DNA of 64,000 nucleotides from a virus, in IMG/VR virus record IMGVR_UViG_3300027754_000045, positions 62,001 to 126,000 of that record. One strand, written 5' to 3'. The position numbers and the translations under genes were made by a program. This document shows, piece by piece, positions 10,567 through 33,600 of this stretch. The notes below the pieces were generated by a model. That model did no database searches. It was not told where the DNA came from and saw only the letters and a list, made by a program, of their open reading frames with translations. Within the stretch, counting starts at the first letter, position 1; each line of letters opens with the position of its first letter.

Positions 10567-10569
10567 TAG

Positions 10570-11915: not shown

Positions 11916-11919
11916 TTTA

Positions 11920-11927
11920 TATAAATA
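11920..11927 (+). promoter_or_regulatory. TATAAATA element before regA
   Basis: An exact late-promoter octamer in the 56-base gap between gene 62 and regA. Predicted start is near 11933, giving a leader of about 40 bases to the regA ATG. A seven-codon ORF begins at 11931. Confidence 0.6.
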
Positions 11928-11971
11928 CTTATGTTATTGTATGAATTAATTTAACGTAAAGCGAATTTGAT

Positions 11972-12382: not shown

Positions 12383-12384
12383 TT

Positions 12385-14951: not shown

Positions 14952-15652
14952 TAAAGTTTAATGACATTACTCTTATTGGTATTGACGGTACTGGAAATGA
15001 TTTTAATATATTAAAATCATTAAAATACAGTAAACAAATATTTCCAAATGCAAAGATTAAATTTTTAACATCTGGTGAACACAAACAAATTGACGAAACA
15101 ATAGAACATATAAAAATTAAAAATTTGAATTATCATGATTTTAGTAAATTTTGTTTAACAGAATGGCACGAACATATTGATACTAAATTTAGTATTAATT
15201 GTCATAATGATGGTTTTGCTGTGAATATACATGCATGGACTGATGAATTTTTAAATTATGATTATATTGGAGCTCCTTGGCCAAGACATAATTTAGAACA
15301 AAGTTCTCAAAGGTGGGAATTAGTCAAAACTGCATATAACAATTCAAATAAATTGTATTGTATTGGAAATGGTGGATTTTCTTTAAGAACAAAAAAATTA
15401 ATGCAGGCAGTAAGTAAATTATATGTAGATGAATATTACGGTATACCAGAAGATTTGGTAATTTGCGTTATATTACGAAAACAATTAGAGGAACAAGGAT
15501 TTAAATTTCCTAATAGTATAGAATTTGCTGGTAAATTTTCTTGCGAAGCACAATTTGTTGATGAATATATATTATCATCGGATAATAGTTTGGGTTTTCA
15601 TTGTGGAGGAACTCATCCTCAAAAAGTAAAATTATTGGAGTCTATATTATGA
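14948..15652 (+). CDS. DUF5672 glycosyltransferase-like protein (copy 1)
   Basis: 234 residues with the DUF5672 hallmarks: an early L-I-G-I-D-G-T-G segment, N-Y-D-Y-I-G-A-P-W near residue 98, the G-N-G-G-F-S-L-R-T-K loop, P-E-D-L-V-I-C, and a closing G-F-H-C-G. The family is thought to be glycosyltransferases of GT-A type. A second member lies at 19213-19941 in the same block. ATGA overlaps on both sides. Confidence 0.8.
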   Translation: MIKFNDITLIGIDGTGNDFNILKSLKYSKQIFPNAKIKFLTSGEHKQIDETIEHIKIKNLNYHDFSKFCLTEWHEHIDTKFSINCHNDGFAVNIHAWTDEFLNYDYIGAPWPRHNLEQSSQRWELVKTAYNNSNKLYCIGNGGFSLRTKKLMQAVSKLYVDEYYGIPEDLVICVILRKQLEEQGFKFPNSIEFAGKFSCEAQFVDEYILSSDNSLGFHCGGTHPQKVKLLESIL

Positions 15653-16644
15653 ATGTTTTAATTACAGGTGTTGCTGGTCTATTGGGTTCTCGTCTTGCTG
15701 ACTGGCTAATAGAAAACAATAAAGCAACTGTTTACGGTATTGATGATCTTTCGGGGGGGTTTATTGAAAATATAAACCCAAAGATAAACTTTTATAAAAT
15801 TAATCTGGTAACCAATAGTGAAAAATTAGAATATATTTTTAAAGAACATAATTTTGATTATATATTTCATTTTGCTGCATATGCTGCAGAAGGTCTAAGT
15901 CCATTTATTCGACAATATAATTACGAAAATAATCTTATTGCAACAACAAAATTAATTAATCTTAGTATTAAATATAATATAAAAAGATTTATATTCACCT
16001 CAACTATGGCAGTATATGGTAATGGAGAAGTTCCATTTAAAGAAACACAACAACAAGCACCTATAGATCCATATGGTATTGCAAAATATGCATGTGAAAT
16101 GGATCTTCGTGTGGCTGGCGAACAACATGGTCTTGATTGGTGTATTTTTAGACCGCATAATGTGTATGGGGCAAAACAGAATATATGGGATAAATATAGA
16201 AATGTTTTAGGTATTTGGATGTATCAACACCTTAATGGTATGCCGTTATCAATTTATGGTGATGGAGAACAAACTAGAGCATTTAGTTATATTGATGATT
16301 GTGTTCCTTATTTTTGGTTAGGTGCAATAGATGATCTTTCCTCAAAACAAATATTTAATATTGGTGGAGACGATCATATTTCTATAAACAATGCTTGTAA
16401 TTTATTATTAGATGTGATAGGATCTGGTAATAAAATTCACTTAGAGCAAAGGCACGAAGTGAAACATGCCTGGGCTACCCACGACAAGATTAAATCTATT
16501 TTGAATTTTAAATCAACTACTCCATTACAGGAGGGTCTTAGTAAAATGTGGGAATGGGCAAAAATACAACCATCCAGAGAAAGAATATTGTGGTCTAAGT
16601 ATGAATTGGAAAAAGGAATTTATAATTATTGGAGATTGAAATAA
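15649..16644 (+). CDS. NAD-dependent nucleotide-sugar epimerase/dehydratase
   Basis: An extended short-chain dehydrogenase of 331 residues. It has the Rossmann T-G-V-A-G-L-L-G-S (6-14), a T-S-T-M-A-V-Y-G active-site segment and the catalytic Y142-G-I-A-K146, then R-P-H-N-V-Y-G and Y-G-D-G-E-Q-T-R-A-F-S-Y-I-D, all typical of UDP-glucose 4-epimerase relatives. The exact substrate cannot be told. The start at 15649 overlaps the previous stop as ATGA. Confidence 0.88.
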   Translation: MNVLITGVAGLLGSRLADWLIENNKATVYGIDDLSGGFIENINPKINFYKINLVTNSEKLEYIFKEHNFDYIFHFAAYAAEGLSPFIRQYNYENNLIATTKLINLSIKYNIKRFIFTSTMAVYGNGEVPFKETQQQAPIDPYGIAKYACEMDLRVAGEQHGLDWCIFRPHNVYGAKQNIWDKYRNVLGIWMYQHLNGMPLSIYGDGEQTRAFSYIDDCVPYFWLGAIDDLSSKQIFNIGGDDHISINNACNLLLDVIGSGNKIHLEQRHEVKHAWATHDKIKSILNFKSTTPLQEGLSKMWEWAKIQPSRERILWSKYELEKGIYNYWRLK

Positions 16645-16645
16645 T

Positions 16646-17275
16646 ATGGCACAAGGTGTATACAAAATTACAGAAGAATTTGAAGAAAAAGTAGCAAAAT
16701 ACACAGGTTCTCCTTATGCCATTGCTCTTGATAATATGAGTAATGCTTTATTTCTTGCATTATATTACGAAAAGGTTCAAGGTTTAGAGATAACAATACC
16801 ATCAAGAACATATATGTCAGTTCCTTGTGAAATAATTCATGCTGGAGCAAAAGTAAAATTTGAACCAGTAGAAGGAACTAAAATTAAAGGTGCATATCAA
16901 CTTAAACCAACTAAAGTTTGGGATTGTGCTTTACGTTTTACTTCTAAGATGTATGTTCCTAATACACACATGTGTTTATCCTTTACTGGTCCGTATAAGC
17001 ATTTAAAATTAAGTAAGGGTGGAATGATACTTACAGATGACGAAAAGGCATATAATTGGTTTAAACGTGCCAGATTTAGTGGAAGAAACGAGACTTCTTA
17101 TCACGAAGACGCATTTGATATGCTTGGGTGGAACTTTTATATGATGCCAGAAATTGCTGCACGTGGTCTTCTTTTTATGACTCAATTTTATGATATCAAT
17201 GGAACACCAAAGGAAAATGAAGATATTGAATTAGGATATCCAGATTTGTCACAATACAAGATCTATACAAAATGA
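16646..17275 (+). CDS. Short DegT/DnrJ-type sugar aminotransferase
   Basis: PLP-dependent sugar aminotransferases of this family add an amino group to keto-sugars. The N-terminal half (T-G-S-P-Y-A-I-A-L-D-N ... S-N-A-L), the P-S-R-T-Y core and the S-F-T-G-P-Y-K-x-x-K-L-S-K-G-G loop around the PLP lysine are present. At 209 residues it is little more than half the usual 370-400; the C-terminal small domain is lacking, with no sign of a frameshifted remainder because the next gene overlaps by ATGA. It may be a remodelled or inactive form. Confidence 0.7.
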   Translation: MAQGVYKITEEFEEKVAKYTGSPYAIALDNMSNALFLALYYEKVQGLEITIPSRTYMSVPCEIIHAGAKVKFEPVEGTKIKGAYQLKPTKVWDCALRFTSKMYVPNTHMCLSFTGPYKHLKLSKGGMILTDDEKAYNWFKRARFSGRNETSYHEDAFDMLGWNFYMMPEIAARGLLFMTQFYDINGTPKENEDIELGYPDLSQYKIYTK

Positions 17276-17865
17276 AAAAGGCAATAATAGGAAATGGATC
17301 GTTTGCAAAAGAGATTTATTGTTATATTCGAGATAATGGGGATATGTCTGATATAGTTTTTTTTGTAGACGACCAGTATAAAACTGAAAATTGTAAAGGA
17401 TTATCTGAATTTGATCCTGAAAATTATGAAGTGGTTGTAGCAATTGCTAATCCTATAGTAAGAGAACAATTTGTCAATAAGCTTCCAAAAAATACAAAAT
17501 ATTTTACTATGATTCACAAGTCAGCACAATTATTAGATTCAAATATTAAAATTGGAGAAGGAAGTATAATATGTGCAAATGTTGTTTTAACTACCAATAT
17601 AAATTTAGGAAAACATACTCAATTAAATTTATTATCATCAATTGGTCATGATTGTGTAGTTGGTGACTACTTCACTACAGCACCAGGAGCAAAAATATCA
17701 GGGAATTGTTGTATAGGAAATAGAGTGTACATCGGAACAAATGGATCAGTTAAAGAAAAAACAAAAATTTGTGATGATGTAATCGTTGGGTTAAATGGTG
17801 GTGTTGTTAAAGATATAGAAATTCCAGGAACATATGTGGGATGTCCCACCAAAAGGATAAAATGA
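17272..17865 (+). CDS. PglD-like sugar acyltransferase (left-handed beta-helix)
   Basis: 197 residues. The N-terminus (K-A-I-I-G-N-G-S-F-A-K-E-I) is the small nucleotide-sugar-binding Rossmann part of PglD-type enzymes. From about residue 90, hexapeptide repeats (I-G-E-G-S-I, L-G-K-H-T-Q, C-I-G-N-R-V, V-I-V-G-L-N-G) form the trimeric acyltransferase helix, with catalytic His in S-I-G-H-D-C. Such enzymes N- or O-acylate amino sugars, which fits the aminotransferase upstream. Confidence 0.85.
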   Translation: MKKAIIGNGSFAKEIYCYIRDNGDMSDIVFFVDDQYKTENCKGLSEFDPENYEVVVAIANPIVREQFVNKLPKNTKYFTMIHKSAQLLDSNIKIGEGSIICANVVLTTNINLGKHTQLNLLSSIGHDCVVGDYFTTAPGAKISGNCCIGNRVYIGTNGSVKEKTKICDDVIVGLNGGVVKDIEIPGTYVGCPTKRIK

Positions 17866-18608
17866 TACATATATATTTTCGTCATTATAATGTTGGGGGA
17901 GATGATAATTCTTCTAGGCAAGATGGTCGTTATAAAGCACGATCTGCTCGTCGTTGGGGAAACGTGGATAGTTGGTTTAGTTATGAAAAGGTATTTCTTA
18001 ATCTACTCAGTACTACTGCTGGAACTAATGTAAAAATTAATGTTATGATGGATGGTGTTATTGAGGAAAATTGGATAGCAAAATATAAAGATAAATTTAC
18101 AGGATATCAATTTGAAGGTGGAACTGATGGATTATCGTTTCATTCAACTTTGAGTATTATTAAAAACGATACATCAATTCAACCTAATGATATAGTCTAT
18201 CTTTTGGAAAATGATTATCTTCATGTAGATGGGTGGGTTCGTAAAGTAGAAGAATTATTTGAAATGTATAATAATAATGTAAGCTATGTTTCTCTGTACG
18301 ATCATCTTGATAAATACATCTATGATCATTATTCGCATTTAAGAGAAAAAATTATTATAAGCAAAACTCACCACTGGAGAACTACTCCCAGCACAACAGG
18401 AACATTTATGTTAACTAAAAAGATTTTTGATGAAGATTATGATACACATTCAACACGAATGGATGATCATGCTAAGTTTGTATGGTTACAAGAAAACAGA
18501 CAAAGATTTTTATTAACACCTATTCCTGGATTATCAACACATTGTGTTGGAGAATGTTCTCCTACTATAGATTGGCAAGCAATTAGTGATAAAGAAATAA
18601 TATTATGA
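17862..18608 (+). CDS. Glycosyltransferase-like protein, unassigned family
   Basis: 248 residues. Y-L-L-E-N-D-Y-L-H near residue 113 resembles a GT-A acidic metal site, and T-P-S-T-T-G-T-F-M-L near 175 resembles the loop after it. The first lines (I-H-I-Y-F-R-H-Y-N-V-G-G-D-D) and H-C-V-G-E-C-S near the end are distinctive, but I cannot place the family. Start overlaps the acyltransferase stop (ATGA). Confidence 0.6.
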   Translation: MIHIYFRHYNVGGDDNSSRQDGRYKARSARRWGNVDSWFSYEKVFLNLLSTTAGTNVKINVMMDGVIEENWIAKYKDKFTGYQFEGGTDGLSFHSTLSIIKNDTSIQPNDIVYLLENDYLHVDGWVRKVEELFEMYNNNVSYVSLYDHLDKYIYDHYSHLREKIIISKTHHWRTTPSTTGTFMLTKKIFDEDYDTHSTRMDDHAKFVWLQENRQRFLLTPIPGLSTHCVGECSPTIDWQAISDKEIIL

Positions 18609-19216
18609 ATTCAGTTGAACAATCATATCAGTTGTTAGTGGAAAGTTCATCGGATATAAATGAACATTTGCCGACATTAAAACGATATGCAGAGGAATGT
18701 GATCATATTACTGAAATGGGTGTAAGGTGGGTTGTTTCTACATTTGCCTTTGCTGTTGCAAAACCAAAGACATTTGTGTCTATTGATATCATAGATCCTC
18801 GTAGTGATTTTGAAAATTGGAATTCTGTTTGGGGATCTGGAGAACGGCTGAATAACATAATTAAATATTGTGCTGAAAATAATGTAAATTATTCATTTTT
18901 GTTAAGTGATACCACAAAAATCACTATTGATGAAACTGATTTGTTGTTTATTGATACATTACATGAATATAATCAAATTAAAACAGAATTAAAATTACAC
19001 GGAAACAAGGCAAAAAAATATCTAATATTTCATGATACTGAAAATTTTAAATTTAGAGACGAAAGAACCCCAGACGTATATGGGTTATCAAGCAAAGATA
19101 AACTTGGAATATGGTCTGCCATTGAGGAATTTTTAATAGAAAATCCACATTGGAAGATTCATGAATTATTTACTAATTGTAATGGTCTTACTATCCTGAA
19201 ACGAGTTAATGTATGA
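18605..19216 (+). CDS. SAM-dependent methyltransferase-like protein
   Basis: 203 residues. I-T-E-M-G-V-R-W-V-V-S-T-F near 37 followed by V-S-I-D-I-I-D near 57 is a SAM-binding motif I/II pair, D-L-L-F-I-D-T-L-H-E-Y near 116 is motif IV, and Y-L-I-F-H-D-T is the strand 5 segment. It resembles the Methyltransf_24 group near glycan genes. It is a likely sugar or glycan O-methyltransferase. Overlaps by ATGA on both sides. Confidence 0.7.
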   Translation: MNSVEQSYQLLVESSSDINEHLPTLKRYAEECDHITEMGVRWVVSTFAFAVAKPKTFVSIDIIDPRSDFENWNSVWGSGERLNNIIKYCAENNVNYSFLLSDTTKITIDETDLLFIDTLHEYNQIKTELKLHGNKAKKYLIFHDTENFKFRDERTPDVYGLSSKDKLGIWSAIEEFLIENPHWKIHELFTNCNGLTILKRVNV

Positions 19217-19941
19217 TAGATTTATCAAGAGTTACTCTTGTGACTATAGATGGTAGTGGAAAAGATACTACTAAACTTCTTGAAGTTATTGATATATGTA
19301 CTCGTAAAATAAATTTTGGATCTGTTATTTTAATTACAGCAGATCCAGATATTGAATCAAACGATAAAGTTACAATTCACAGAATTCAAAAAATGACATA
19401 TCCAGAATATAATGCATTCTGTATAACTGATTTAAATGAATATATAAATACAGAGTTTTGTTTGATTGCACAAACTGATGGATTCATTTGTAAACCAACA
19501 AATTGGATGGATGAATTTTATAACTATGATTATATTGGGGCTCCTTGGATGGATGCTGAGCCTGGTTATTTTCCTTGGGTGACTGAACCAAAATATCAAG
19601 TAGGTTGTGGTGGTTTTTGTTTCCGTAGCAAGAAACTTTTACAGGCAGGAGCAGATATAAACAAAGTAGGTATAAATAAAGGATACATCACTAGGATGAC
19701 AGAGGCAGGAATGGGCGAAGATGTAATTATATGTGTATCTCTCAGAAATTATTTTGAAAAAATGGATTGTAAATTTCCTACAGGAGAATTTGCAAAAAAG
19801 TTTGCACTCGGAAGTGCTCCTTTAAAGGAAAATCAGTTAGAAACTACATTTGGATTTCATAGTAATGAATATATGCCAGAAGTGAGAAAAATGATTGAAA
19901 GGTGGGATGATTATGAAACTACAAGAAATATTAATAAATAA
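19213..19941 (+). CDS. DUF5672 glycosyltransferase-like protein (copy 2)
   Basis: 242 residues, paralogous to 14948-15652: L-V-T-I-D-G-S-G-K-D, Y-N-Y-D-Y-I-G-A-P-W-M-D, G-C-G-G-F-C-F-R-S-K-K-L, G-E-D-V-I-I-C and G-F-H-S occur in the same order. Overall divergence is high, so the duplication is old or the two were acquired separately. It overlaps the following methyltransferase by 29 bases. Confidence 0.8.
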   Translation: MIDLSRVTLVTIDGSGKDTTKLLEVIDICTRKINFGSVILITADPDIESNDKVTIHRIQKMTYPEYNAFCITDLNEYINTEFCLIAQTDGFICKPTNWMDEFYNYDYIGAPWMDAEPGYFPWVTEPKYQVGCGGFCFRSKKLLQAGADINKVGINKGYITRMTEAGMGEDVIICVSLRNYFEKMDCKFPTGEFAKKFALGSAPLKENQLETTFGFHSNEYMPEVRKMIERWDDYETTRNINK

Positions 19942-20494
19942 TAAACACTGGAATTCTCCAATAGAAGGAGGACCAGGAACGGACAAAAATACAGGACATA
20001 GTTATATTTCTGGATTTTATGAAGAAGCATTTTTTCCTTATAAAACTAAACATATCTCTATTCTTGAAATAGGAATAGCAAGAGGTGATTCATTATTATT
20101 ATGGAATGAATATTTCAAAAATAGTAAATTAATTTATGGTTTAGATAACCACAATCAATTATCATCAGAAGTTAAATCACATTCAAATTTAAATATAATA
20201 TTCAATAATGCATACACAGAACAAATTGCAAACACACTTCCAACATTTGATATTGTAATTGACGATGGTCCACATAGTTTAGATTCTCAATGTATTGCTA
20301 TCTCTTTATATCTTCCAAAAGTAAATCCTGGTGGTATTTTTATAATTGAAGATGTTCAATCTGAAAGTTATATTGAAACATTTAAAAACTTAGTTCCAGA
20401 AAAATATAGAAAATATTGTGAATTTATTGATCTTCGTAAGATTAAAAATAGAGTAGATGATATGATGTTTGTTGTAAGAATTCCTGAGGAATAA
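19913..20494 (+). CDS. SAM-dependent methyltransferase (class I)
   Basis: 193 residues. S-I-L-E-I-G-I-A-R-G-D-S near 51 is SAM motif I, G-L-D-N follows, F-D-I-V-I-D-D-G-P-H-S near 110 is motif IV, and G-G-I-F-I-I-E-D-V marks strand 5. The D-D-G-x-H motif is typical of enzymes annotated beside rare-sugar clusters. AGGTGG at 19900 is well spaced for the ATG at 19913, so this start is preferred over the upstream ATG at 19907 and TTG at 19895. Confidence 0.78.
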   Translation: MKLQEILINNKHWNSPIEGGPGTDKNTGHSYISGFYEEAFFPYKTKHISILEIGIARGDSLLLWNEYFKNSKLIYGLDNHNQLSSEVKSHSNLNIIFNNAYTEQIANTLPTFDIVIDDGPHSLDSQCIAISLYLPKVNPGGIFIIEDVQSESYIETFKNLVPEKYRKYCEFIDLRKIKNRVDDMMFVVRIPEE

Positions 20495-20495
20495 A

Positions 20496-21299
20496 ATGCC
20501 AAAAATATATGACTGTTTTCAATTTTTTAATGAATTGGATATTTTAGAAATACGATTAAACGAACTTAATTCTGAAGTTGATTATTTTGTTATTGTTGAA
20601 GCAGAAACTAGCCATCAACTTAAACCAAAACCATTATATTTTGAAGAAAATAAAAAAAGATATAGTGAGTTTTTAGATAAAATTATTCATGTTGTTGTTC
20701 CAGCTAATAAATTTGTAACCCCAGATATTTTTAATTTTGCTCATCGTAATGACCAAATCCAAAGAGATTATTTAAGAAATGGAATAAAAGATGCAAATGA
20801 TACAGATTTTATTATTATTTCTGATTTAGATGAAATTGTTTCTAGTAAAAAATTAAACGAATATAAACATTCATCATATGGCGAACAAGGAATACCTGTT
20901 ATTTTTGAACAAAATTTTTATATGTGGTATTTAAATACTAGAGTATCTAATTATATGTGGCATAATTCTGGTATTGTAAGAAAACAAGATTTAGATAAAG
21001 TTGGTACTAGGGGATTTAAAGATAATAAAACTTGTTTAATGTATCCTAGAATAAAAAATGGTGGATGGCATTTTTCTTATATTGGCTCACCTAATCAGGT
21101 TAAAACTAAATTAGATAATTTTGCACATACAGAATTTTCACATATAAGTATAGAAAATTTAACTCAAAATAAAGAAAATTTAACCGATCCTTTGTGTAGA
21201 TCAGACGAAGGAATTAATTTTATAATTGATTCTATAGATACTATGCCAGAATATGTACAAAATAATATTGAAAAATTTAAAGAATTTATAAAACAATAA
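20496..21299 (+). CDS. GT17 glycosyltransferase
   Basis: 267 residues with the family 17 (beta-1,4-GlcNAc-transferase-like) sequence: Y-D-C-F-Q-F-F-N-E-L-D-I-L-E-I-R-L at the start, V-D-Y-F-V-I-V-E-A, I-I-S-D-L-D-E-I near 107 as the acidic site, and G-W-H-F-S-Y near 190. Known members transfer GlcNAc to protein-linked or surface glycans; the acceptor here is unknown. It is the last gene before a fresh promoter. Confidence 0.85.
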   Translation: MPKIYDCFQFFNELDILEIRLNELNSEVDYFVIVEAETSHQLKPKPLYFEENKKRYSEFLDKIIHVVVPANKFVTPDIFNFAHRNDQIQRDYLRNGIKDANDTDFIIISDLDEIVSSKKLNEYKHSSYGEQGIPVIFEQNFYMWYLNTRVSNYMWHNSGIVRKQDLDKVGTRGFKDNKTCLMYPRIKNGGWHFSYIGSPNQVKTKLDNFAHTEFSHISIENLTQNKENLTDPLCRSDEGINFIIDSIDTMPEYVQNNIEKFKEFIKQ

Positions 21300-21300
21300 A

Positions 21301-21328
21301 TTGACATTTATATTATATCGTGTATAAT
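21301..21328 (+). promoter_or_regulatory. Consensus sigma-70 promoter in the sugar block
   Basis: Perfect TTGACA, 16 bases, perfect TATAAT in the 55-base gap before 21355; predicted start near 21335. This is the strongest host-type promoter in the window. Confidence 0.88.
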
Positions 21329-21354
21329 ATTAAAACAGAAAGAAGATTTATGTT

Positions 21355-22473
21355 ATGAAAAAAATATTAGTATTAGGTGGTGGCGGATTTATAGGTTCTC
21401 ATTTAGTTAAAAGACTAAAAAACGAAGGGCATTTTGTACGAGTTTGTGATTTAAAACATCCAGAGTATTCATATACTACAGCAGATGAATTTATTATTGG
21501 AGATTTAAGAAATCAAATAGTCTGTGATAGAGTATTTGATATGCAATTTGACGAAGTATATCAATTAGCAGCAGATATGGGTGGTGCTGGATATATCTTT
21601 ACTGGAGAAAATGATGCAAACGTTATGCATAATTCTGCATTAATCAATTTAAATGTAGTTGAACGATGTGTTAAAACTAAAGTAGGTCGAGTATTTTATT
21701 CTTCCTCGGCTTGTATATATCCTGCATACAATCAGCAAGATCCAAATAACCCAAAATGTTCAGAAGATAGTGCATATCCTGCTGCTCCAGATAGTGAATA
21801 TGGTTGGGAAAAATTATTCAGTGAACGATTATATCTTTCATTTAGTCGTAACTACAAATTAGATGTACGTATTGCAAGATATCATAATATTTTTGGTCCA
21901 GAAGGAACATGGAAGGGTGGTAAGGAAAAGGCTCCAGCGGCTCTTTGTCGTAAAGTATCAGAAGCAAATAATAATTCTTCTATTGAGGTATGGGGCCCTG
22001 GACAACAGACACGTTCTTTTTTATATATCGATGAATGTATAGAAGCAACCATAAGACTTATGAGATCTGATTTTACAGGACCAGTAAATATTGGTTCAGA
22101 AGAAATGATAAATATTAATGATCTTGCAAAAACTATTATTAATATTTCTAATAAAAACATTATAATTAATAATGTGAAAGGACCAGTTGGAGTTATGGGA
22201 AGAAATTCAGATAATAAATTATATAAAGAACAAATTGGTTGGGAACCATCACAACCATTAGTAGAAGGTCTTAAAATTACATATAAATGGATCGAAACAC
22301 AACACATGAGTTGTTTGTCTTTTACTAGTATTGCTCAATTAGATATTGAAGATAAAACTGGAAAAGATACAAGAGATAATCCATCAATCATAAAACCAGA
22401 ATATATTAATAATGGAAAATCAGAAAAAGTTAGTGTTGCTCAATTAGACATTGAAGATAGATTTAGGAGTTAA
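21355..22473 (+). CDS. GDP-mannose 3,5-epimerase-like enzyme with C-terminal extension
   Basis: An extended SDR of 372 residues. L-G-G-G-G-F-I-G-S-H (7-16) binds NAD; A-A-D-M-G-G-A-G-Y, V-M-H-N-S-A, S-S-S-A-C-I-Y-P, Y149-G-W-E-K153 and K-A-P-A-A-L-C-R-K follow GDP-mannose 3,5-epimerase (GDP-L-galactose route) closely. The enzyme body ends near residue 315; the remaining 55 residues hold two copies of A-Q-L-D-I-E-D. Read from a consensus promoter. Confidence 0.85.
   Translation: MKKILVLGGGGFIGSHLVKRLKNEGHFVRVCDLKHPEYSYTTADEFIIGDLRNQIVCDRVFDMQFDEVYQLAADMGGAGYIFTGENDANVMHNSALINLNVVERCVKTKVGRVFYSSSACIYPAYNQQDPNNPKCSEDSAYPAAPDSEYGWEKLFSERLYLSFSRNYKLDVRIARYHNIFGPEGTWKGGKEKAPAALCRKVSEANNNSSIEVWGPGQQTRSFLYIDECIEATIRLMRSDFTGPVNIGSEEMININDLAKTIINISNKNIIINNVKGPVGVMGRNSDNKLYKEQIGWEPSQPLVEGLKITYKWIETQHMSCLSFTSIAQLDIEDKTGKDTRDNPSIIKPEYINNGKSEKVSVAQLDIEDRFRS
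22331..22459 (+). repeat. Two 24-bp direct repeats at the 3' end of the epimerase gene
   Basis: Copies at 22331-22354 and 22436-22459 differ at one base and encode A-Q-L-D-I-E-D twice in the C-terminal extension. The phase is the same, so the repeat adds a peptide motif. Confidence 0.9.
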
Positions 22474-23348
22474 TGATGAAAATAGTATTTTTTAATCATC
22501 ACTCTGATGAAATGTATTGGCACATCAAAACCTTTCAATCTCTTGGGCACGAATGTTGTGTAGCCACTCGTAGACTTACTTTAGAATGCGGAGAAGATTA
22601 CTGCACATTTAATGAATCTGGACTTGTGCAAAAAGGTCCAGTATTTTATAAGTGGGAACACCTTCACCCCGACATGGATTTAACCTTTACAGATACACTT
22701 GAAGGCTTTGATGCAGCAGCAACAATAAGTAAAAAAATTCCACATGTTTTGGCACCAAAAATGAAAGTATTTGCGTGTATAGTAGTAAAATACGATATTA
22801 ATAATTTTAATAATATACAAAATGTTACTAAAATAATAGCACATCCAGATGCAAAACAATGGAATGGACATTTTGTTCCTAAGTATGTTCCACCTTATGG
22901 AAAAATTGGTGATAATATCTACATAAGTCAATTAATGGAAAGATATTACACAAAATACTTAAAAGATTTAATAGAATTAAAAAAACAAGGATATCCAGTT
23001 ATTGTTGCTGGAGCAAACGAAGCACCAGATGGTGTTGTTGGTGATTTAGATTTATTACAAAATACTAGATTTTTAGTTCATGATAAAGATTATGGAATAT
23101 CTTGTGGTGCAGTATTAAAGGCTTTAGATTCAGGTTGTATGGTATACATTAGTAAAATTAATAGAATTGAAATTGGATTATCTGATGTTCCAGATAAGTG
23201 TTTTATATTTAACGATGATATTTCTATCAAAGATGCATATCATAAATATAAAAAATATGATAAATGTGATATTCAGACAACATACCGCAACGTAAGAAAC
23301 ATAAATAATGCAGTGGAGCGATTGAAAGATATTCTTTGTATGATGTAA
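22473..23348 (+). CDS. Putative GT-B-like glycosyltransferase
   Basis: 291 residues. The start K-I-V-F-F-N-H-H-S-D-E-M-Y-W-H-I looks like the first Rossmann strand of a GT-B enzyme, and the second half (Y-P-V-I-V-A-G-A-N-E ... V-L-K-A-L-D-S-G-C-M-V-Y-I) like a donor-side domain. No family signature is conclusive. AGGAG lies five bases before the ATG; the start overlaps the preceding stop (TAATG). Confidence 0.5.
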   Translation: MMKIVFFNHHSDEMYWHIKTFQSLGHECCVATRRLTLECGEDYCTFNESGLVQKGPVFYKWEHLHPDMDLTFTDTLEGFDAAATISKKIPHVLAPKMKVFACIVVKYDINNFNNIQNVTKIIAHPDAKQWNGHFVPKYVPPYGKIGDNIYISQLMERYYTKYLKDLIELKKQGYPVIVAGANEAPDGVVGDLDLLQNTRFLVHDKDYGISCGAVLKALDSGCMVYISKINRIEIGLSDVPDKCFIFNDDISIKDAYHKYKKYDKCDIQTTYRNVRNINNAVERLKDILCMM

Positions 23349-23351
23349 ACC

Positions 23352-25967
23352 ATGGAAAAAATAATAATAACAGGCGGTCTTGGTTATATTGGTTCTGAAT
23401 TATGTAAATTATATTCAGGCGAAGCTCGTTTCAAAAACATAACGGTAATTGATTCTCGTTTTATTTCTGAAAGAGTTAAACAACTCAGAGATTGGGGTAT
23501 TAATTTTGTTCAAGGATCGATTTTAGACGAATCTTTTATTTCTAGTCTTATCAAAGATGCAGATGTTGTTATTCATCTTGCTGGTATAACCGATGTAGCA
23601 TATACTAAAACCGAAGCAAATGAAGAAAAAGATATTCAAATACGCCAAATAGGAATTAATGGTACTAGAAATATTATTAAATATACTAAAAAGAATTGCA
23701 AAATTATATTTCCTTCAACACACGTTGTATTTGAGGGATTTTCTGAAACTAAAATTAATATTGAAGAAACAGAACAGCCATGTCCAATTTTGACATATTC
23801 TATTGGAAAAGCACAATCAGAAATTGATATTATTCAATCTAATAAAAATTATATTATTCTTCGTTTAGCCTCAGTATACGGTTATTCTACCGATACTACA
23901 AGAATGAATATAATGCCTAATTTATTTTCTAAAATTGCATCACAGAATGGAACAATTAGTCTTTTTTCTGGTGGAATTCAATTAAAAAGTCTGGTTCCTT
24001 TAATTGATGTGGCTAGATGTATGAAATTTATGGCAGAAAATAATATAAAGAAAGAAATATTTCATCTTTCAAAAGAAACTATGACCGTTAAAGAAGTTGC
24101 AAATATCTGTAAAGAATTTAATCCTAAATTAACTATAATAGAAACAAAAGACGAAATTCCAAATCTTGGTTATACATTATCTAATAAAAAATTATTATCT
24201 ACTGGTTTTCAATTTTTATATGATATTAGACAATGTATTAAAGAAATGATTAATAATTGGTCAATCAAAGATATAAATTTAGAATTAGAATATTTAGATA
24301 AGGGTGGTAAAGAATTTGTTGATTCTCGTGGTAAAATTTTAAATTATGAACTCACAGAACCAATTAATATGATTGGTTATATTGAATCTAAAAAAGGAAC
24401 AGTAAGAGCAAATCATTATCATCCAATTCAAGAACAAAAATGTTTACTTGTTAAGGGTCAATATATTAGTGTAATAAAAGATCTTTCAATAGAAAATGGT
24501 CAAATTGAAACTAAACTAGTAAATGAAGGTGATATTGCTATTATCAAACCAAATGTTGCTCATACAATGATATTTACAGAAGATTCAATTTTCTTAAATT
24601 TGGTTCGGGGAGAGAGAGAACATTCAAATTATGGTATTACGCATACCATTCCATATATTCTTGTAGATGAAGAAACAAAAAATAGACTTCTTTTATCATA
24701 TAAAACTTCATGTAAATCGTGTGGTAATAAACATTTAGATAGAGTTATCTCTTTAGGCAATTCACCTCTAGCAAATAATCTTAAAAATTCTATAAATGAA
24801 AATACTGAAGTATATCCACTAGAAGTTAATTACTGTTCAAAGTGTCAAAATTGTCAACTTTCTGTTGTTGTACCACCAGAAAAAATGTTTGATAATTATC
24901 TTTATGTTTCTTCTACAACATCAGTTTTCAGAAACCATTTTGAAAATGTAGCTTTACAATATATTGATGAATTTAATTTAGATAATACTTCTTTAGTTGT
25001 TGATATTGGAAGTAATGATGGTGTAGGTATTAAACCATTTATGGACAGAGGAATAAAAGTAGTTGGAGTAGATCCTGCTAAAAATATTGCAAATATTGCA
25101 AATGATAAAAATATTCCAACTATAAATGAATATTTTGATCATAGCACTGCAATTAAAATTATTGAAAAATATGGAAAAGCAAAATTAGTAACTGCGTCTA
25201 ATGTTTTTGCACATTCAGATAAGTTAGTAGATATTGCTAATAGTGCTTTTGAATTATTGGATGATGATGGTGTATTTATTGTTGAAGTTCAGTATTTATT
25301 AGATACTATAAATGATTTAACTTTTGATAATATTTATCACGAACATGTAAATTATTGGAGTATTACTTCTATTAATAATTTTTTTAATAATTTAAATTTG
25401 ATAGTTTATAAAGTAGAGCACATAGATACTCATGGTGGTTCTGTAAGAGTTTATGTAAAAAGAAATGGATGCTTAATAGAGCCTAGCGTTAATATTTATC
25501 TGGAAAATGAAAATAATTTTGGTATTAAAACCTTAAAAACATATAAAGAATTTGAAAAAAATATAATTAATATTAAAAAAATTGTAAATGAAAATTTTAA
25601 AAAATTAAAAGAAAAATACGGCACAATTGCTGCATATGGTTCACCAGCAAAAGCAACAACTTCTTTAAATTATTTTGGTATTAATAATAATTATATTGAT
25701 TATACTATAGAAGATAATCAGATGAAAGATGGTAAATATATTCCTGGAGTAAATATTCCTATTAAAAATAAAGAATATTGTATATCTAATCCACCAAAAA
25801 TTATTGTTGTTCTTGCTTGGAACTTTTTTGAACATATTAAAAATAGTAACAAAATATTATTAGACATGGGAATAAGGTTTATAAATATAAAAGAGTTACA
25901 AGATATTAATTTTAAATTAGATGATAAACCACAAATAGATACTAAGAATTTTATATATTACATGTAA
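23352..25967 (+). CDS. Trimodular fusion: SDR epimerase/reductase + cupin + C-methyltransferase
   Basis: An 871-residue protein joining three enzymes of deoxysugar synthesis. Residues 1-315 are an extended SDR with T-G-G-L-G-Y-I-G-S (7-15) and Y149-x3-K153. Residues about 325-445 are a cupin of the RmlC/FdtA type with R-A-N-H-Y-H-P (H355, H357), V-K-G and P-N-V-A-H-T. From 454 comes a C-methyltransferase of the NovU/TylCIII type: zinc module C454-K-S-C ... Y-C-S-K-C-Q-N-C, SAM motif D551-I-G-S-N-D-G, H-E-H-V-N-Y, and the C-terminal Y762-G-S-P-A-K-A-T-T module. No stop or frameshift interrupts it. Confidence 0.88.
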   Translation: MEKIIITGGLGYIGSELCKLYSGEARFKNITVIDSRFISERVKQLRDWGINFVQGSILDESFISSLIKDADVVIHLAGITDVAYTKTEANEEKDIQIRQIGINGTRNIIKYTKKNCKIIFPSTHVVFEGFSETKINIEETEQPCPILTYSIGKAQSEIDIIQSNKNYIILRLASVYGYSTDTTRMNIMPNLFSKIASQNGTISLFSGGIQLKSLVPLIDVARCMKFMAENNIKKEIFHLSKETMTVKEVANICKEFNPKLTIIETKDEIPNLGYTLSNKKLLSTGFQFLYDIRQCIKEMINNWSIKDINLELEYLDKGGKEFVDSRGKILNYELTEPINMIGYIESKKGTVRANHYHPIQEQKCLLVKGQYISVIKDLSIENGQIETKLVNEGDIAIIKPNVAHTMIFTEDSIFLNLVRGEREHSNYGITHTIPYILVDEETKNRLLLSYKTSCKSCGNKHLDRVISLGNSPLANNLKNSINENTEVYPLEVNYCSKCQNCQLSVVVPPEKMFDNYLYVSSTTSVFRNHFENVALQYIDEFNLDNTSLVVDIGSNDGVGIKPFMDRGIKVVGVDPAKNIANIANDKNIPTINEYFDHSTAIKIIEKYGKAKLVTASNVFAHSDKLVDIANSAFELLDDDGVFIVEVQYLLDTINDLTFDNIYHEHVNYWSITSINNFFNNLNLIVYKVEHIDTHGGSVRVYVKRNGCLIEPSVNIYLENENNFGIKTLKTYKEFEKNIINIKKIVNENFKKLKEKYGTIAAYGSPAKATTSLNYFGINNNYIDYTIEDNQMKDGKYIPGVNIPIKNKEYCISNPPKIIVVLAWNFFEHIKNSNKILLDMGIRFINIKELQDINFKLDDKPQIDTKNFIYYM

Positions 25968-25982
25968 AGAGAAAGTTAAATT

Positions 25983-27227
25983 ATGCCTAAATTATGCCTA
26001 TCGATGATTGTTAAAAATGAAACTCACATTATCAAAGAATGCCTGGATTCAATCTACAAGTATGTGGATTACTGGGTCATTGTGGATACTGGTTCCACAG
26101 ACGGAACTCAAGAGTTAATTAAAAACTTCTTTGCCGAGAAGGGTATTCCTGGAGAACTTCATGAACGCCCATGGGTAGGATTCGGTGATAACCGCACAGA
26201 GGCTCTACAACTCTGCGACGGCAAGGCAGACTGGGCATGGATGATTGATGCCGACGACTATGTGGAAGGAGAGTTTCAGTTTCCGTTTAATGTGGGAGAA
26301 GTTGAAGCATTTGCTCTTGCGTTTGGTCGTGGCGAGTTCAGTTGGTGGAGAACTCAGATTTTCCGCACAGGTATTGGCTGGAGATACGAAGGCATTCTTC
26401 ACGAGTACCCAACAAAGCCAAATGTGGAAACTACTCCTCCAAAGATTGCAAAGCTGGAAGGAAAATATAAAATTGTTGCTCGCACCGTTGGAGCACGTAA
26501 TGTAGGCATTGATCCTATCGAGAAGTATAAACGGGATGCCATCATGTTGGAAGAAGTTCTGGTTAAGGAACCAAACAATGTAAGATACCAGTTCTATCTG
26601 GCTCAAAGCTATTTTGACTCTCAGCAATGGGAAAAGGCAGAAGCCGCCTACAAGAAGCGTGTAGAGATGGGTGGCTGGGAAGAAGAGCAATACTATTCAG
26701 CTTTTCGTATCGCCATGTGCCGTGGTCTTGCCAACAAGCCTTGGATCGAAATTCAGCAAGGATTCCTAGAATCCTGGGAACTTCGACCACACCGAGCAGA
26801 GCCTCTTCATCAGATTGCACGAGTCTACCGAATGATGGGTCATCCACGACTAGCCTTCTTATACGCAAAGATGGCTCTTGATATTCCGTATCCAAAGGAT
26901 GATATCTTGTTCGTCTCCGAAGATGTCTACAAGCATGCTGTTCTAGACGAAATTGCTTCCACTGCTTTCTATGCAGGAAAGCCTCATATGGGATACTCTG
27001 CCTGCAAGAAACTATTACTGGAAAACCTGCTTCCTCCAGATCAGGTTGAGCGTGTGCAAACCAATCTGAGTCAATACTTAAAGTTCTTTGAACAAAGTAA
27101 TCAAATGGAGATTATCAAGCAGTTAGATGAACAAGCCTCAAAACAAGCCGAAAAACGAGACCATAAACCTGCCCTATTTCCAGCACAAAAAAAGAACTTT
27201 AAAACTAGAAAACCAGTACATCGATAA
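25983..27227 (+). CDS. GT2 glycosyltransferase with C-terminal helical (TPR-like) repeats
   Basis: 414 residues. Residues 1-110 are a GT2 domain: L-C-L-S-M-I-V-K-N-E, V-D-T-G-S-T-D-G-T and the catalytic-metal I-D-A-D-D near 90. Residues about 180-370 form paired helices (R-Y-Q-F-Y-L-A-Q-S-Y-F-D ... A-E-A-A-Y-K-K-R), as in SunS-type glycosyltransferases with TPR tails that act on proteins. The C-terminus is basic. By eye the codons are clearly less AT-rich than the preceding 12 kb, so it has a different history. Confidence 0.85.
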   Translation: MPKLCLSMIVKNETHIIKECLDSIYKYVDYWVIVDTGSTDGTQELIKNFFAEKGIPGELHERPWVGFGDNRTEALQLCDGKADWAWMIDADDYVEGEFQFPFNVGEVEAFALAFGRGEFSWWRTQIFRTGIGWRYEGILHEYPTKPNVETTPPKIAKLEGKYKIVARTVGARNVGIDPIEKYKRDAIMLEEVLVKEPNNVRYQFYLAQSYFDSQQWEKAEAAYKKRVEMGGWEEEQYYSAFRIAMCRGLANKPWIEIQQGFLESWELRPHRAEPLHQIARVYRMMGHPRLAFLYAKMALDIPYPKDDILFVSEDVYKHAVLDEIASTAFYAGKPHMGYSACKKLLLENLLPPDQVERVQTNLSQYLKFFEQSNQMEIIKQLDEQASKQAEKRDHKPALFPAQKKNFKTRKPVHR

Positions 27228-27229
27228 AG

Positions 27230-27237
27230 CCTAAATA
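27230..27237 (+). promoter_or_regulatory. Late promoter variant CCTAAATA
   Basis: The octamer ends six bases before the ATG at 27243; T4 geometry puts the transcript start exactly on that A. No Shine-Dalgarno is present. The same CCTAAATA variant recurs at 53859, 54739 and 57411. Confidence 0.65.
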
Positions 27238-27242
27238 CACGT

Positions 27243-27653
27243 ATGACCGCAAAATACGACTTAACAATCAATAAAGGTTCTAATTTTGAGTTTTGGCTTC
27301 AGTATCAAAGAGAAGACAACACTCCAGTCGATTTAAGTGCGTATACTGCCGCACTGGTAGTTAAACGATTTAAAGGACAAGAATATCCTATTTTGTCTAT
27401 GAATAATTCTGGCTTGACTTATGGGTATAGTTCTGGAAATACTCTTGGTCTTTCTGGTTCGGGCAATATAAGTCTTAATACAGATTATGACGGAACAGGA
27501 ATTACTGGAGGAATTTCTGTAAATATCACAGCAAACACAACAAAAAAACTAACTTCAGGAAGTCATTTTTATGATTTAAATTTGATGATAGGAATTACGT
27601 ATTCTCAAAAACTTCTTGAAGGAAAGATTTTCATACAAGACGGATCACGTTAA
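27243..27653 (+). CDS. Small virion protein, probably baseplate or fibre-linked
   Basis: 136 residues, mostly beta. Y-D-L-T-I-N-K-G-S-N-F-E-F-W-L at the start and V-D-L-S-A-Y-T-A-A-L-V-V-K resemble the N-terminal attachment domain of phage baseplate or receptor-binding proteins. Gly/Ser-rich middle, then S-G-S-H-F-Y-D-L-N. It directly precedes and overlaps (TAATG) the giant tail protein, so the two are co-translated and may interact. Confidence 0.65.
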   Translation: MTAKYDLTINKGSNFEFWLQYQREDNTPVDLSAYTAALVVKRFKGQEYPILSMNNSGLTYGYSSGNTLGLSGSGNISLNTDYDGTGITGGISVNITANTTKKLTSGSHFYDLNLMIGITYSQKLLEGKIFIQDGSR

Positions 27654-30600
27654 TGAAACTCAAAATTCGTGAACTTTTAAATAAGGTTTTGTTTTTTAAT
27701 AAACCTCAGGAAAATATAACTAAACTTAAAATAATTGAGCAAGTTAAGTTTAATACTGTTTCAGTCAATACTGATTTTTTTGCTAATGATTTTTTTAATT
27801 TTCTTCCTACAATAACAAGTATTGCTCCAACTTCTGGTTTAGTAGCTGGAGGAACGTCATTTACTATAACAGGTACTAATCTTACTGGTACTTCTAGCGT
27901 AACTGTTGGCGGTGTTGCAGCAACCAGCGTTGCTGTTGTTTCTGGGACTTCTGTTACGGCTGTTACTCCAGCAGGAACAGCAGGCGTAAAGAGTGTTGTT
28001 CTTACTACTCCTGGAGGAACAGCCACTGCATCAAGTGCATTTACCTATATTGGCGTACCTACAATAACAACAATAAATCCTAGTACTGGTGTATTAGCTG
28101 GAGGAACACCATTTACTATAGGAGGAACTAATTTATTAAATACTTCTAGTGTAACTGTTGGCGGTGTTGCGGCAACCAGCGTTACTATTGTTTCTAGTAC
28201 TTCTGTTACCGCTGTTACTCCAGTAGGAACAGCAGGCGTAAAGAATATTGTTCTTACTACTCCAGGAGGAACAGTAACATTCTCAAGTGCTTTTGAATAC
28301 ACAGATATTGCTGTATTCCCTACAATAACAATTATTGCTCCAATTTCTGGAGTATTAGCAGGAGGAACAACCTTTGGCATAACAGGAACTAATTTATCAG
28401 ATACTTCTAGCGTAACTATTGGTGGTGTTACCGCTACTAGCCTTACTAATGTTTCTAGTGTTTTTGTTACTGCACGTACTCCAGCAGGAGCAACAATAGG
28501 CTTAAAGAATATTGCTTTAACAACTCCTATAGGAACAGCAATATCAGCAAATGCATTCACGTATATTGGCCTACCTACAATAACAAGTATTGCTCCAACT
28601 TCTGGTGTATTAGCAGGAGGAACAACCTTTGGTATAACAGGAACTAATTTATCAAATACTTCTAGCGTAACTGTTGGTGGTGTTACGGCTACTAGTCTTA
28701 CTAATGTTTCTGATACTTCTGTTACTGCACGTACTCCAGCAGGAGTAACAACAGGATTAAAGAATATCACTTTAATAACTCCAGGAGGAACAACTACTGC
28801 ACCAAATGCATTTACGTATATTGGCCTACCTACAATAACAGAAATTACTCCAAATTCTGGTCCAGTAAGCACCGAAACAACTGTAAATATAGATGGCACT
28901 AATTTATCAGGTACTTCTAGTGTAACTGTTGGCGGTGTTGCGGCAACTAATTTAAATATATTTAGCCCATTTAGCGTAGGGTGTGATTTTCCAGTAGGAA
29001 CAATAGGTGCAAAGAATGTTGTTCTTACTACTCCAGGAGGAATAACTACTGCACTAAATGCATTCACGTATATTGGCGTACCTACAATAACAAGTATTTC
29101 TCCTACTTCTGGTGTAGTAGCAGGAGGAACAACTATTACTATAACAGGTACTAATTTATCAGATACTACTATCGTAACTATTGATGGTGTTGAGGTAACT
29201 AGCTTTACTAATGTTTCTAGTACTTCTGTCACGGTTGTTACTCCAGCAGGAGCAACAATAGGCGCAAAAAATATTGTTCTTACTAATTTCGGAGGAACAG
29301 TTACTGCACCAAACGTATTTACGTATATTGGGCTACCTACAATAACAAGTATTGCTCCAGCTTCTGGCGTATTAGCAGGAGGAACGACTTTAGGAATAAC
29401 AGGAACTAATTTATCAGGTACTTCTAGCGTAACTGTTGGTGGTGTTACGGCTACTAGTCTTACTAATGTTTCTAGTGTTTTTGTTACTGCACGTACTCCA
29501 ACAGGAGCAATAATAGGAGTAAAGAATATTGTTCTTACTACTCCAGGAGGAATAACTACTGCACTAAACGCATTTACCTATATTGGCGTACCTACAATAA
29601 CAACAATAAATCCTAATACTGGTATATTAGCTGGAGGAACATCATTTACTATAGCAGGAACTAATTTATCAAATACTTCTAGCGTAACTGTTGGCGGTGT
29701 TGCGGCAACGAACGTTACTACTCTTTCTGGGACTTCTGTTACTGCAGTTACTCCAGCAGGATCAGCAGGCCTAAAGAATATTGTTCTTACTAATCCAGGA
29801 GGAACAGTTACTGCATCAAATGCTTTTGAATACACAGATATTACTATAATACCTACAATAACAAGTATTTCTCCAACTTCTGGCGTATTAGCAGGAGGAA
29901 CAACTTTAGGCATAACAGGAACTAATTTATCAAATACTACTAGCGTAAAGGTTGATGGTGTTACCGCTACTAGTCTTACTAATGTTTCTAGTGTTTTTGT
30001 TACTGCAGTAACTCCAGCAGGAGCAACAATAGGCCTAAAGAATATTACTCTAAATACTACTCTTGGAGGAGTAACATCAGTAAATGCATTTACTTATATT
30101 GGCCTACCTACAATAACAAGTATTGCTCCAATTTCTGGCGTATTAACAGGAGGAACAACCTTTGGCATAACAGGAACTAATTTATCAGATACTTCTAGCG
30201 TAACTGTTGGTGGTGTTACTGCTACTAGCCTTACTAATGTTTCTAGTGTTTTTGTTACTGCAGTAACTCCAGCAGGAGCAACAACAGGCGCAAAGAATAT
30301 TGTTCTTACTACTCCAGGAGGAATAACTACTGCACTAAACGCATTTACTTATACGGATTTTAATCTTGATTTTGCAAGAATACAAGTATTAGCAGATACT
30401 CGTATAAGTGATTTGTGGGTATTAGATACTACAAAAGCAAAACCTGTTGGTGTTGTTGCTGGGAAGTTTTATGCTCAAAGTGGCATTGATCGTTCTCAAG
30501 GAGGTTACACATCTGCTCCTAATGGAAGATTGACAAAATGGGCACAACCATTATTTTATACTCCCAGATCTATGGCAGATGTTATTAAAGGAACAACTGC

Positions 30601-33600
30601 AATTTCTGGCTTATGTGCAAGCCTAACTTATAATAAATTTGGCATTTTAAAAAATTTAAATTATTTTTATGGTGGACAGACCTCTGGTAGTGAAGGATCG
30701 GTTAATATGTCACGCCTATTGAGACTCAAAGAAGGAATAACTGGAGGAAAAAATGTAATCAAAAGACCGTATTCTTTTAATGATATTAAAACTTTTGGTT
30801 TAAGTGCAGGTCATACACTTTTTGGTAATATTAATAGTGATAAAACAGTAACTGCTGTAGCAATAGCATACAATAATCCAAACTCTTGGTCTCTAAAAAG
30901 AAATATGTTACTAAGTAGTTTAAGTCAAATTGATGAATGGCAATCTTATAGAGTTTTAAATTATTTAACACCTCTTGCTATTTCCTGGAGATTTCAAAAA
31001 GAAATCAGACAAAATAGTATAGGATTTTCAAATAATGTTTCACAAATATCTGAATCAGAACTTAACGCAGTAAATACAGATACTCTAAATCATCTTAAAA
31101 TATTATTAGACGAATATAAAGACCATTATCCGCTAGCAAGACCGAATAACGGAGTGAATAATACTCTAGGTAGTAACCAAACTTGGCGTGGAGAGGCAAC
31201 TAGTGGCTATCCTATGGGTCTGTGTGGTTCTTTTGGTGTTCGAACATCTCCATATCCGTTAGGAGCAACTCTTGATTTTATTCCTGCACTAGGAGTAAAC
31301 GGAACAACCTTAGATACTTGGTCTCCTCAAGGATGGACAGCAGATACAGGAATGTATTTATTTGACGGTTGGGGTATGAGATATATTTTAGAAAATATGA
31401 TATATTTGGACGGAGTAACATCAGTAATAGAACCAGTTACAACAACAACTCAACTTAAAGCAGATTCTTCGTGGAATAATATTCTTATAGAAGTAAAAAA
31501 ATTAATGCTTAAAGAAATTTTTGATTATGTGATACACACAGAAGAAGGAAGAGCCTGGTATGCTAAAAGAAAGTATTGGCCAGACGGTTCAGAGCGAGAC
31601 TCACTGATTTATGCAGACTCAAACCCAAATCGAATATGGACAGAACAAGCAACTGGTTTAACAGGAATTAAGTATTATTATAATCATTATTTTAATGGAA
31701 CTGGTTATTGGTATCCAGAACCAGATAATAAAGGATATGTAGGAACCAATCAAAATATTACTCCTATGGCATATCGTATGTTAGCCACAATGTATTTGTA
31801 TCCTTATATGACACTAGACAAAGAAAGAACTGCTCTTTTATCTGCGTATAATATGATGGCAGAAGAATGTGCTTCGGTGTTAGAACGATTTTTAATGGGA
31901 GTTACTTCTTCTCAAGAAAATAGTGCTGGATATTGGACGGAAGGTTGGGGATATGCTGCACAATCTATGCCAGATTTTTTGAAAATATTAACCTCTATGA
32001 AAACTATGGGAGACAGGAGACTATGGGACAAAAAGTCAACTCCAGACTATTTCAATAAAACAATACCAGGAATTTCTTATAGTTCTTGGACAAACAATAC
32101 TTGGAAATGGATCGTTAGTAGAATAATGCCAAATAATTTAATTATTAATTCTGGATCATGCAATAGTTCTGGATGGGAAACTATAGGCAACTCTTATCAA
32201 TTTACACCGTGGGGAGTGTATTTAACTGCTGTGAATGCAAGCGAAAGTCCTACTCCAGGAACCACGGGATCTGCAATTAGCGAACTTCATGATTGGTTTG
32301 ATAATAACGCAGGATACGAAGAAGAAATTGAATATTTTTACAATGTTAGAAAATATCAAGAACGTAATACATATAACGAAAAAATTAACACTCCTTGGTT
32401 TTACTCTCCAGGGGACTGTATAGTTACTTGGAAGTCGGAACACGTAATACCAAAATTTCAAAGTGATTGGACTTACGGAAATAATACAGAAAGACCTGAT
32501 GGTAAACCAGGATACGTTGTTAATAATTTTAATAAACCTTTAATTTTTGGTCTTTGGGCTAAGGGCGTAGGAGTTAGTGACGAAAAAACTAATGTTGATT
32601 GCGGTCACATTTCTGCTTATTTGGGCGACGCTGCATTACTAATAGAGACTGGTGAACCTAGACAGTTACTGGAATTTGATAATGATAAAACAAATAACTA
32701 TTTTTACGAAAGAGAAACTTTCAGGGTAAAAGGACATAATGTTATGCAATTGGGAGAAAGACTTGATTACAAGAATCCCAAATATGCTCCTTGGACTGGA
32801 GTAACATTTACCGCAACTGGTGGTAGTGCATTTTTAAATGCAACTTCAAATTATAATGTTAGACCATTAAAAATAAGTACTCCTCAACCATTGGGTGATA
32901 ATCGACCTAATCCAAAAGATGGAGGTTTTCCAACATGGGCAGAAAGTGATCCTGCCTGGGATAATGTATCTGACGGATTTTTATATCTTGCAGGAACAAC
33001 ACAAATAGCGAATACACGAGGAGGAGATACTGCACAATATTTGGCTCAATCCAGTAATATTCTTGGTGGATCAGAAACTATAGACGGAAGAGCTGGTCAA
33101 TACGTATTTGAGCCGTATCAATACCAAATAAAAACCTGCACAAGAGGTATTACCTGGGAATATTCTGCTGGTGTTGCAAAAATTAGAATTCAGGATATTG
33201 TGGGAATAAGTGCATTCAACAACAATCCATCGTTCTGGTCAGCAACTGGTCCGTATGCAACAGGACCAGACACAAGAGTATATTATCGTTTTCATACTGG
33301 ATATACTGGAGCAAACGATATAGCAGGAAATCCAAGTTCAACTAGTTGGCCATTCTTTACCACCACAGACGCAGGATTAACTTTCTTTTCAGTTTCTGGC
33401 ACAAACAACAAGACTTGGCAAGCAGCGTGGACACAACCAATACCGTATAATACAATGGCATATGATGGTGTTGTGAGCAGATTAGATTCTGTTGGTGTCA
33501 CAATGACCTTTGTTGGAAGTCAGCCAATTAAATTAACAAAAGAATTATCAGTAAATCATTCTTTTAAATATTCTTCAGTAACTAAACCAGGAATAGGAAT

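Follow-up and report, generated by a model that had tools for sequence, protein, structure and literature searches.

The window, the whole stretch of 64,000 nucleotides that was analysed, belongs to a phage record of 153,850 bases and contains, in single copy within that record, one intact open reading frame for a protein of 871 residues; the opposite strand over this gene is full of stops. As the earlier note had proposed, three sugar-enzyme domains are joined in the one polypeptide: an SDR, a cupin and a sugar C-methyltransferase, all of which were recovered by structure prediction and, in the case of the cupin below threshold, by domain search (Table 1). The full-chain AlphaFold model (mean pLDDT 83) shows three compact regions, and confidence is lowest near residues 320–333, in the cupin loop at 421–429 and in the C-terminal tail.

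Table 1. Coordinates of the fusion gene, its domains and motifs, and the surrounding features of the window
Feature	Position	Strand	Evidence or remarks
Swappable low-GC sugar/glycosyltransferase cassette, ~12 kb	13770–25975	+	Comparison with L138, GC; fusion is the last gene
DUF5672 protein	14948–15652		
DegT-type aminotransferase, 209 aa	16646–17275		Two-stretch match to 360-position profile
DUF5672 protein	19213–19941		
Family 17 glycosyltransferase (GT17)	20496–21299	+	PF04724, E = 2.6e-23
GDP-mannose 3,5-epimerase homologue	21355–22473	+	E = 9e-95 to 2c59
Whole fusion gene	23352–25967	+	871 aa plus stop
SDR domain, residues 1–305	23352–24266	+	Pfam PF01370, profile, Foldseek, conservation
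Cupin domain, residues 306–447	24267–24692	+	Weak PF14667/Cupin_2, weak CapF match, jelly-roll model, fold matches
Sugar C-methyltransferase domain, residues 450–856	24699–25919	+	PF08421, PF13489, PF08484; 4rv9/TcaB9 profile; Foldseek
Zinc-site cysteines C454, C457, C495, C498	24711–24845	+	Aligned with N-terminal Cys pairs of MtmC/TcaB9
Catalytic motif Y662-H663-E664-H665 (TcaB9 Y222, E224, H225)	25335–25346	+	Alignment; invariant in 121 sequences
GT2-type glycosyltransferase with TPR	25983–27227	+	PF00535, E = 1e-12; directly downstream of the fusion, just outside the swapped cassette
Protein of 2513 aa with choice-of-anchor Z repeats	27653–35194		At least eight NF058597 repeats
Tail sheath-like protein, 1187 aa	59817–63380	-	Similarity to known sheath families confined to the last 205 residues

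An assembly join, or the chance read-through of separate genes, is of negligible probability. Three viral homologues are indeed broken or split (L019, L025 and L028), but at least 121 full-length, collinear copies exist, including that of the window, in approximately 40 viral contigs and 80 bacterial genomes (the best 80 of 408 relatives), and they come from many independent assemblies, single-cell genomes among them. Purifying selection acts on all three domains (dN/dS 0.02–0.25 where measurable) and on the gene as a whole (0.05–0.18 between close pairs), the values being generally lowest in the cupin. Moreover, the catalytic positions of the SDR and methyltransferase, and the histidines of the cupin, are invariant or nearly so among the 121 homologues. 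Thus, the fusion is no sequencing join and none of the three domains has lost its set of key residues, so that neither of the objections anticipated by the earlier note applies. Of the broken copies, those of L019 (7983–10571) and L025 (7953–10495) run through two or three frames, owing to either sequencing error or decay. At a further locus (L023, 7992–11363), an open frame of 1139 codons gives the fusion an extra C-terminal extension of ~250 aa that, by reading, resembles an FkbM-type methyltransferase.

The SDR matches the NAD-dependent epimerase family over residues 4–237 (PF01370, E = 3.6e-24) and has the signatures of its class: a Rossmann GxxGxxG motif (GGLGYIG, residues 8–14), the Ser/Thr-Tyr-Lys set (S122/T123 and Y149xxxK153) and, after β2, an NAD-type aspartate, D34. 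An Asp at this position confers a preference for NAD, and it is retained in all 120 sequences that cover it, as it is in Cj1427. The latter is the nearest solved relative (6vo6/6vo8; profile E = 6e-31 to 6vo6, Foldseek TMt 0.85), and it shares the conserved Asp, Tyr and Lys. Cj1427 oxidises C4 of GDP-D-glycero-D-manno-heptose, with the NADH remaining bound and being re-oxidised by α-ketoglutarate (PMC10680097). Since its nearest relative is a C4-dehydrogenase, the window SDR may form a 4-keto sugar rather than reduce one; similarity of sequence between SDRs cannot, of itself, separate an oxidase from a reductase or an epimerase. Cj1427 is, however, a stand-alone enzyme with about 23% identity to the window SDR, and its substrate specificity cannot be carried over.

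The Pfam match of the cupin is sub-threshold (PF14667, residues 324–404, E = 0.004; Cupin_2 when the cupin is scanned alone), and all 28 sampled cupins of the family match PF14667 weakly. Its structure is predicted with confidence to be a jelly roll (mean pLDDT 86.6), for which Foldseek finds RmlC-like and FdtA-like keto-sugar cupins in the PDB (E about 1e-7, TM about 0.65). The residues presented by the fold include R352, H355xH357, E361, Q362 and H404, forming an HxHx4Q motif. All three histidines are invariant in 121 sequences, and the position of the canonical Glu of the motif is taken by Q362, which is likewise invariant. That Q362, rather than E361, occupies the metal-glutamate position is indicated by the spacing and by the presence of His or Gln at position 362 in distant cupins; E361 itself is replaced by Gln in four viruses.

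The description of this domain as a cupin epimerase in the earlier note survives in part. The cupin fold, of the NDP-keto-sugar type, is upheld; membership of the RmlC family was rejected, as PF00908 (dTDP_sugar_isom) is not matched by the window cupin and is matched weakly by five of the 28 family members (best E = 0.0076). Of the sugar enzymes in the PDB, CapF alone can be linked to the window cupin by sequence, and then weakly, through its own cupin (E = 0.036); membership of the CapF family was also rejected: NF047837 hits the cupin part only, with 15–17 bits against a cut-off of 500. An epimerase is plausible. It is unlikely, in our estimation, that the cupin is instead a sugar 3,4-ketoisomerase of the FdtA/QdtA type, or some other metal cupin. 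Such an enzyme would be compatible with the HxHx4Q motif, with the DegT aminotransferase genes that adjoin the cupin and methyltransferase genes in several distant genomes, and with the presence of 3,4-ketoisomerases, of similar length, among the best fold matches; yet the RmlC-type 3,5-epimerases fit the fold equally well, and the window cupin gives no match to the FdtA family (PF05523). Were the ketone moved by a 3,4-ketoisomerase, the methyl group may land on a different carbon.

In the C-terminal domain, Pfam recognizes, in order, the Methyltransf_13 zinc domain (residues 454–513; 57.4 bits versus a gathering score of 31.3), Methyltransf_23 (residues 543–685; 49.5 versus 27) and Methyltransf_14 (residues 693–844; E = 2.3e-39, 135.2 versus 23.5). 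The domain, of 407 residues, can be aligned over its full length with MtmC (4rv9, E = 7e-69), KijD1 (5t64) and TcaB9 (3ndi, E = 4.5e-49), and it superposes on all three with a Foldseek TMt of 0.90–0.93. Five residues, Y516, H621, Y662, E664 and H665, correspond in the alignment to Y76, H181, Y222, E224 and H225 of TcaB9, each of which has been mutated in structural work on that enzyme, and all five are invariant in 121 sequences. Homology therefore argues strongly that the domain would catalyse the SAM-dependent C3 methylation of a keto sugar. Whereas MtmC, TcaB9 and KijD1 are stand-alone enzymes of antibiotic pathways that act on dTDP-deoxysugars, the window methyltransferase is fused to an SDR and a cupin. 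The N-terminal zinc Cys pairs are shared with these enzymes, and the window protein has all four cysteines; between one and four are missing in one bacterial and 11 viral homologues, so that some members of the family can do without the zinc site. The catalytic residues are kept in the viral homologues concerned (L015, L016, L018, L021, L022, L120, L121, L127, L128, L130 and L131).

Counterparts in which the cupin is not fused were sought with a cupin profile in 398 Pseudomonadota, 101 SAR86-order genomes and 287 Patescibacteria-phylum genomes. In every one of the 20 genomes followed up (nine Pseudomonadota, 10 Patescibacteria and one of the SAR86 order), the cupin is a separate gene lying directly beside a C-methyltransferase gene, the product of which is 32–43% identical to the window methyltransferase domain; this bears out the view of the earlier note that the parts are normally encoded separately. 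Additionally, an SDR of the UXS (UDP-glucuronate decarboxylase) type is present in the same cluster in 12 of the 20, usually next in line (L157, L159, L160, L162, L164, L171 and L173–L178). The fusion thus condenses a widespread operon, in which the same three functions stand side by side but as separate genes (except for the methyltransferase and SDR of L178), and with an SDR of the UXS subfamily. In L178, from a member of the Patescibacteria, the methyltransferase and a UXS-type SDR form an independent fusion of 763 aa (3386–5674) next to a stand-alone cupin. Reshuffled modules are also found in viruses, as SDR–cupin plus methyltransferase (L028), as SDR plus cupin–methyltransferase (L144), and as SDR plus methyltransferase with no cupin (L030, L035 and L138). 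Nothing argues more strongly for a common pathway of the three parts than this recurrent association, in which the points of fusion shift and even the SDR subfamily can change. UXS enzymes begin by oxidizing C4 with NAD; as the UXS-type operon partner would also start in this way, C4 oxidation may well be the common denominator. Moreover, a cupin that is always adjacent suggests an unrecognized standard partner enzyme of sugar C3-methyltransferases.

The search for the same fusion elsewhere, as advised in the earlier note, was successful in both viruses and bacteria. Thirty-five relatives were found in a scan of IMG/VR, 61 loci in a second scan with alignment, and 408 relatives in a scan of prokaryote genomes. 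The best 80 of these 408 are all full-length and derive almost entirely from Pelagibacteraceae, the remainder being one SAR86, one Patescibacteria MAG and one unplaced proteobacterial contig. Among the genomes sampled, the full-length fusion is present in 18 of 60 of the SAR11 family and absent from 298 other Pseudomonadota. The SAR11 locus is often chromosomal, typically between lon and a zinc-ribbon gene that is followed by nuoABCDEF, and a GT17 gene directly adjoins the fusion in 52 of the best 80 bacterial loci (upstream and on the opposite strand in 51). The fusion is, therefore, mainly a SAR11 trait that T4-like viruses share, and not the phage peculiarity that it had first seemed; its frequency on SAR11 chromosomes means that it tells us more about SAR11 than about the window phage. 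Few cells in the ocean are as abundant as SAR11 bacteria, the surface-sugar chemistry of which is poorly known. In a tree calculated with no outgroup, the SAR11 copies split from the viral copies with 100% SH-aLRT support, and the SAR86 and Patescibacteria copies fall on the viral side. The fusion also occurs, at 67% identity, in a 642-kb record of an uncultured huge phage.

The phage itself has replication genes of the T4 type (clamp, clamp loader, gp43, gp46/47 types and replicative helicase) as well as a tail sheath. Its gp43 is 47% identical to that of a cyanophage, although psbA, sought as a mark of a cyanobacterial host, is absent, and hardly anything came up when GenBank phages were searched for near matches at the DNA level. 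The cassette that ends with the fusion has a GC content of 24–32%, versus 33–45% in its flanks. A near-identical phage (L138) shares those flanks, with 90.5% DNA identity over 8200–13769 and 81.6% over 25976–27287, but between them its cassette is another one altogether, in which an SDR and a methyltransferase are encoded unfused. On the downstream side, the breakpoint of this exchange is a few bases at most from where the fusion gene stops. Besides the genes for the GT17 enzyme and the GDP-mannose 3,5-epimerase homologue, which points to GDP-sugars, the cassette encodes a UDP-glucose 4-epimerase-like SDR, a PglD-like protein, two DUF5672 proteins and others. The GDP-mannose 3,5-epimerase homologue is of the plant type and is also present in a few related viral loci. 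Homologues of the downstream GT2-type glycosyltransferase were found in 12 related viral loci, of the DUF5672 proteins, which are probably glycan-related, in 13, and of the DegT-type aminotransferase, a degenerate or reduced enzyme, in 11.

As the methyltransferase is clearly homologous to structurally characterized sugar C3-methyltransferases, the evidence favours a C3-methyl branched sugar over other classes of product, in agreement with the C-methylated, branched sugar suggested by the earlier note. For the course of the reaction, we give an even chance to a trifunctional nucleotide-sugar branching enzyme, in which a bacterial SDR/cupin/C-methyltransferase trio has been fused and the SDR acts first, as an oxidase. 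By analogy with Cj1427, the NAD-type SDR would oxidize C4 of an NDP-sugar to give the 4-keto sugar; the cupin would then carry out an epimerization or isomerization at a carbon adjacent to the ketone; the C-terminal domain would use SAM to methylate the enolate at C3; and the final reduction of the ketone would fall either to the SDR again, through the NADH that it has kept bound, or to a further enzyme. The resultant C3-methyl branched NDP-sugar could be used by the GT17 and GT2 enzymes in and beside the cassette, for a host surface glycan or for the virion. That the fusion channels the intermediate is a reasonable guess.

The deoxysugar envisaged in the earlier note is less well favoured, given that neither an RmlB nor a Gmd 4,6-dehydratase is encoded in the 153,850-base phage record (which may be incomplete), and that the closest relative of the SDR oxidizes an intact GDP-heptose. 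Both dehydratases are also missing from viral contig G008. By contrast, among 20 SAR11 genomes with the fusion, 15 have RmlB and 17 have either RmlB or Gmd, such that a dehydratase-made 4-keto-6-deoxy substrate would be available to most SAR11 hosts; this counts against the C4-oxidase reading, as does the different subfamily of the operon SDR in distant bacteria. It is possible, although we think it less probable, that the SDR is a C4-ketoreductase: the 4,6-dehydratase of the host would supply an NDP-4-keto-6-deoxyhexose, the methyltransferase would methylate C3, the cupin would epimerize and the SDR would finally reduce C4. Such an order has parallels in the final stages of L-mycarose synthesis and in CapF, an SDR–cupin fusion that performs C3 epimerization and then C4 reduction (PMC3699295). 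CapF/Cap5F of Staphylococcus aureus (2zkl, 3st7) has the two domains on one chain in the same order, and to it leads the weak cupin link noted above, alongside the weak PF14667 matches of the 28 cupins; but it lacks a methyltransferase, and its SDR belongs to another subfamily. Set against a ketoreductase are the NAD-type Asp, the greater proximity of the window SDR to Cj1427 and GalE than to RmlD or CapF, and the lack of RmlB and Gmd in the two viral records. Returning to the C4-oxidase reading, we would extend it only tentatively, and with some doubt, to a single, self-contained polypeptide that would branch an ordinary NDP-hexose or NDP-heptose in a redox-neutral manner and with no need of a 4,6-dehydratase: bound NAD would oxidize C4, the cupin would make its adjustment, C3 would be methylated, and the NADH still bound would bring about the reduction. 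If true, non-deoxy C-methyl sugars would be present both at the surface of SAR11 cells and in glycans directed by phages.

No description of the fusion was found in the literature searched (a coverage that excludes most subscription journals and bioRxiv preprints), so the trifunctional enzyme is apparently undescribed; it is built from known families, and is not a new kind of enzyme. The multifunctional rhamnose enzymes RmlC-RmlD, NRS/ER and RHM (PMC6556577) similarly fuse successive keto-sugar steps, but they lack a methyltransferase, use a different epimerase family and yield L-rhamnose. The predicted pathway to virenose, a 3-C-methyl sugar of the Coxiella burnetii LPS, likewise employs a TylCIII-type C3-methyltransferase on an NDP-4-keto sugar destined for a surface glycan (PMC3539893), although its genes are separate and it starts with a 4,6-dehydratase.

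In pelagimyophages, variable regions rich in glycosyltransferases have been read as a means to alter the O-chain of the host (PMC7029224); alternatively, it may be the virion that is decorated. The fusion would be a conserved route to a branched sugar within one gene, common to SAR11 and to large T4-like viruses that swap it in and out of a cassette, and so provides a concrete target for work on the alteration, or imitation, of SAR11-type surface glycans by phages. Close downstream of the GT2-type gene, the protein with choice-of-anchor Z repeats is a possible tail adhesin. Towards the end of the window, the tail sheath-like protein resembles known sheath families solely in its C-terminal part.
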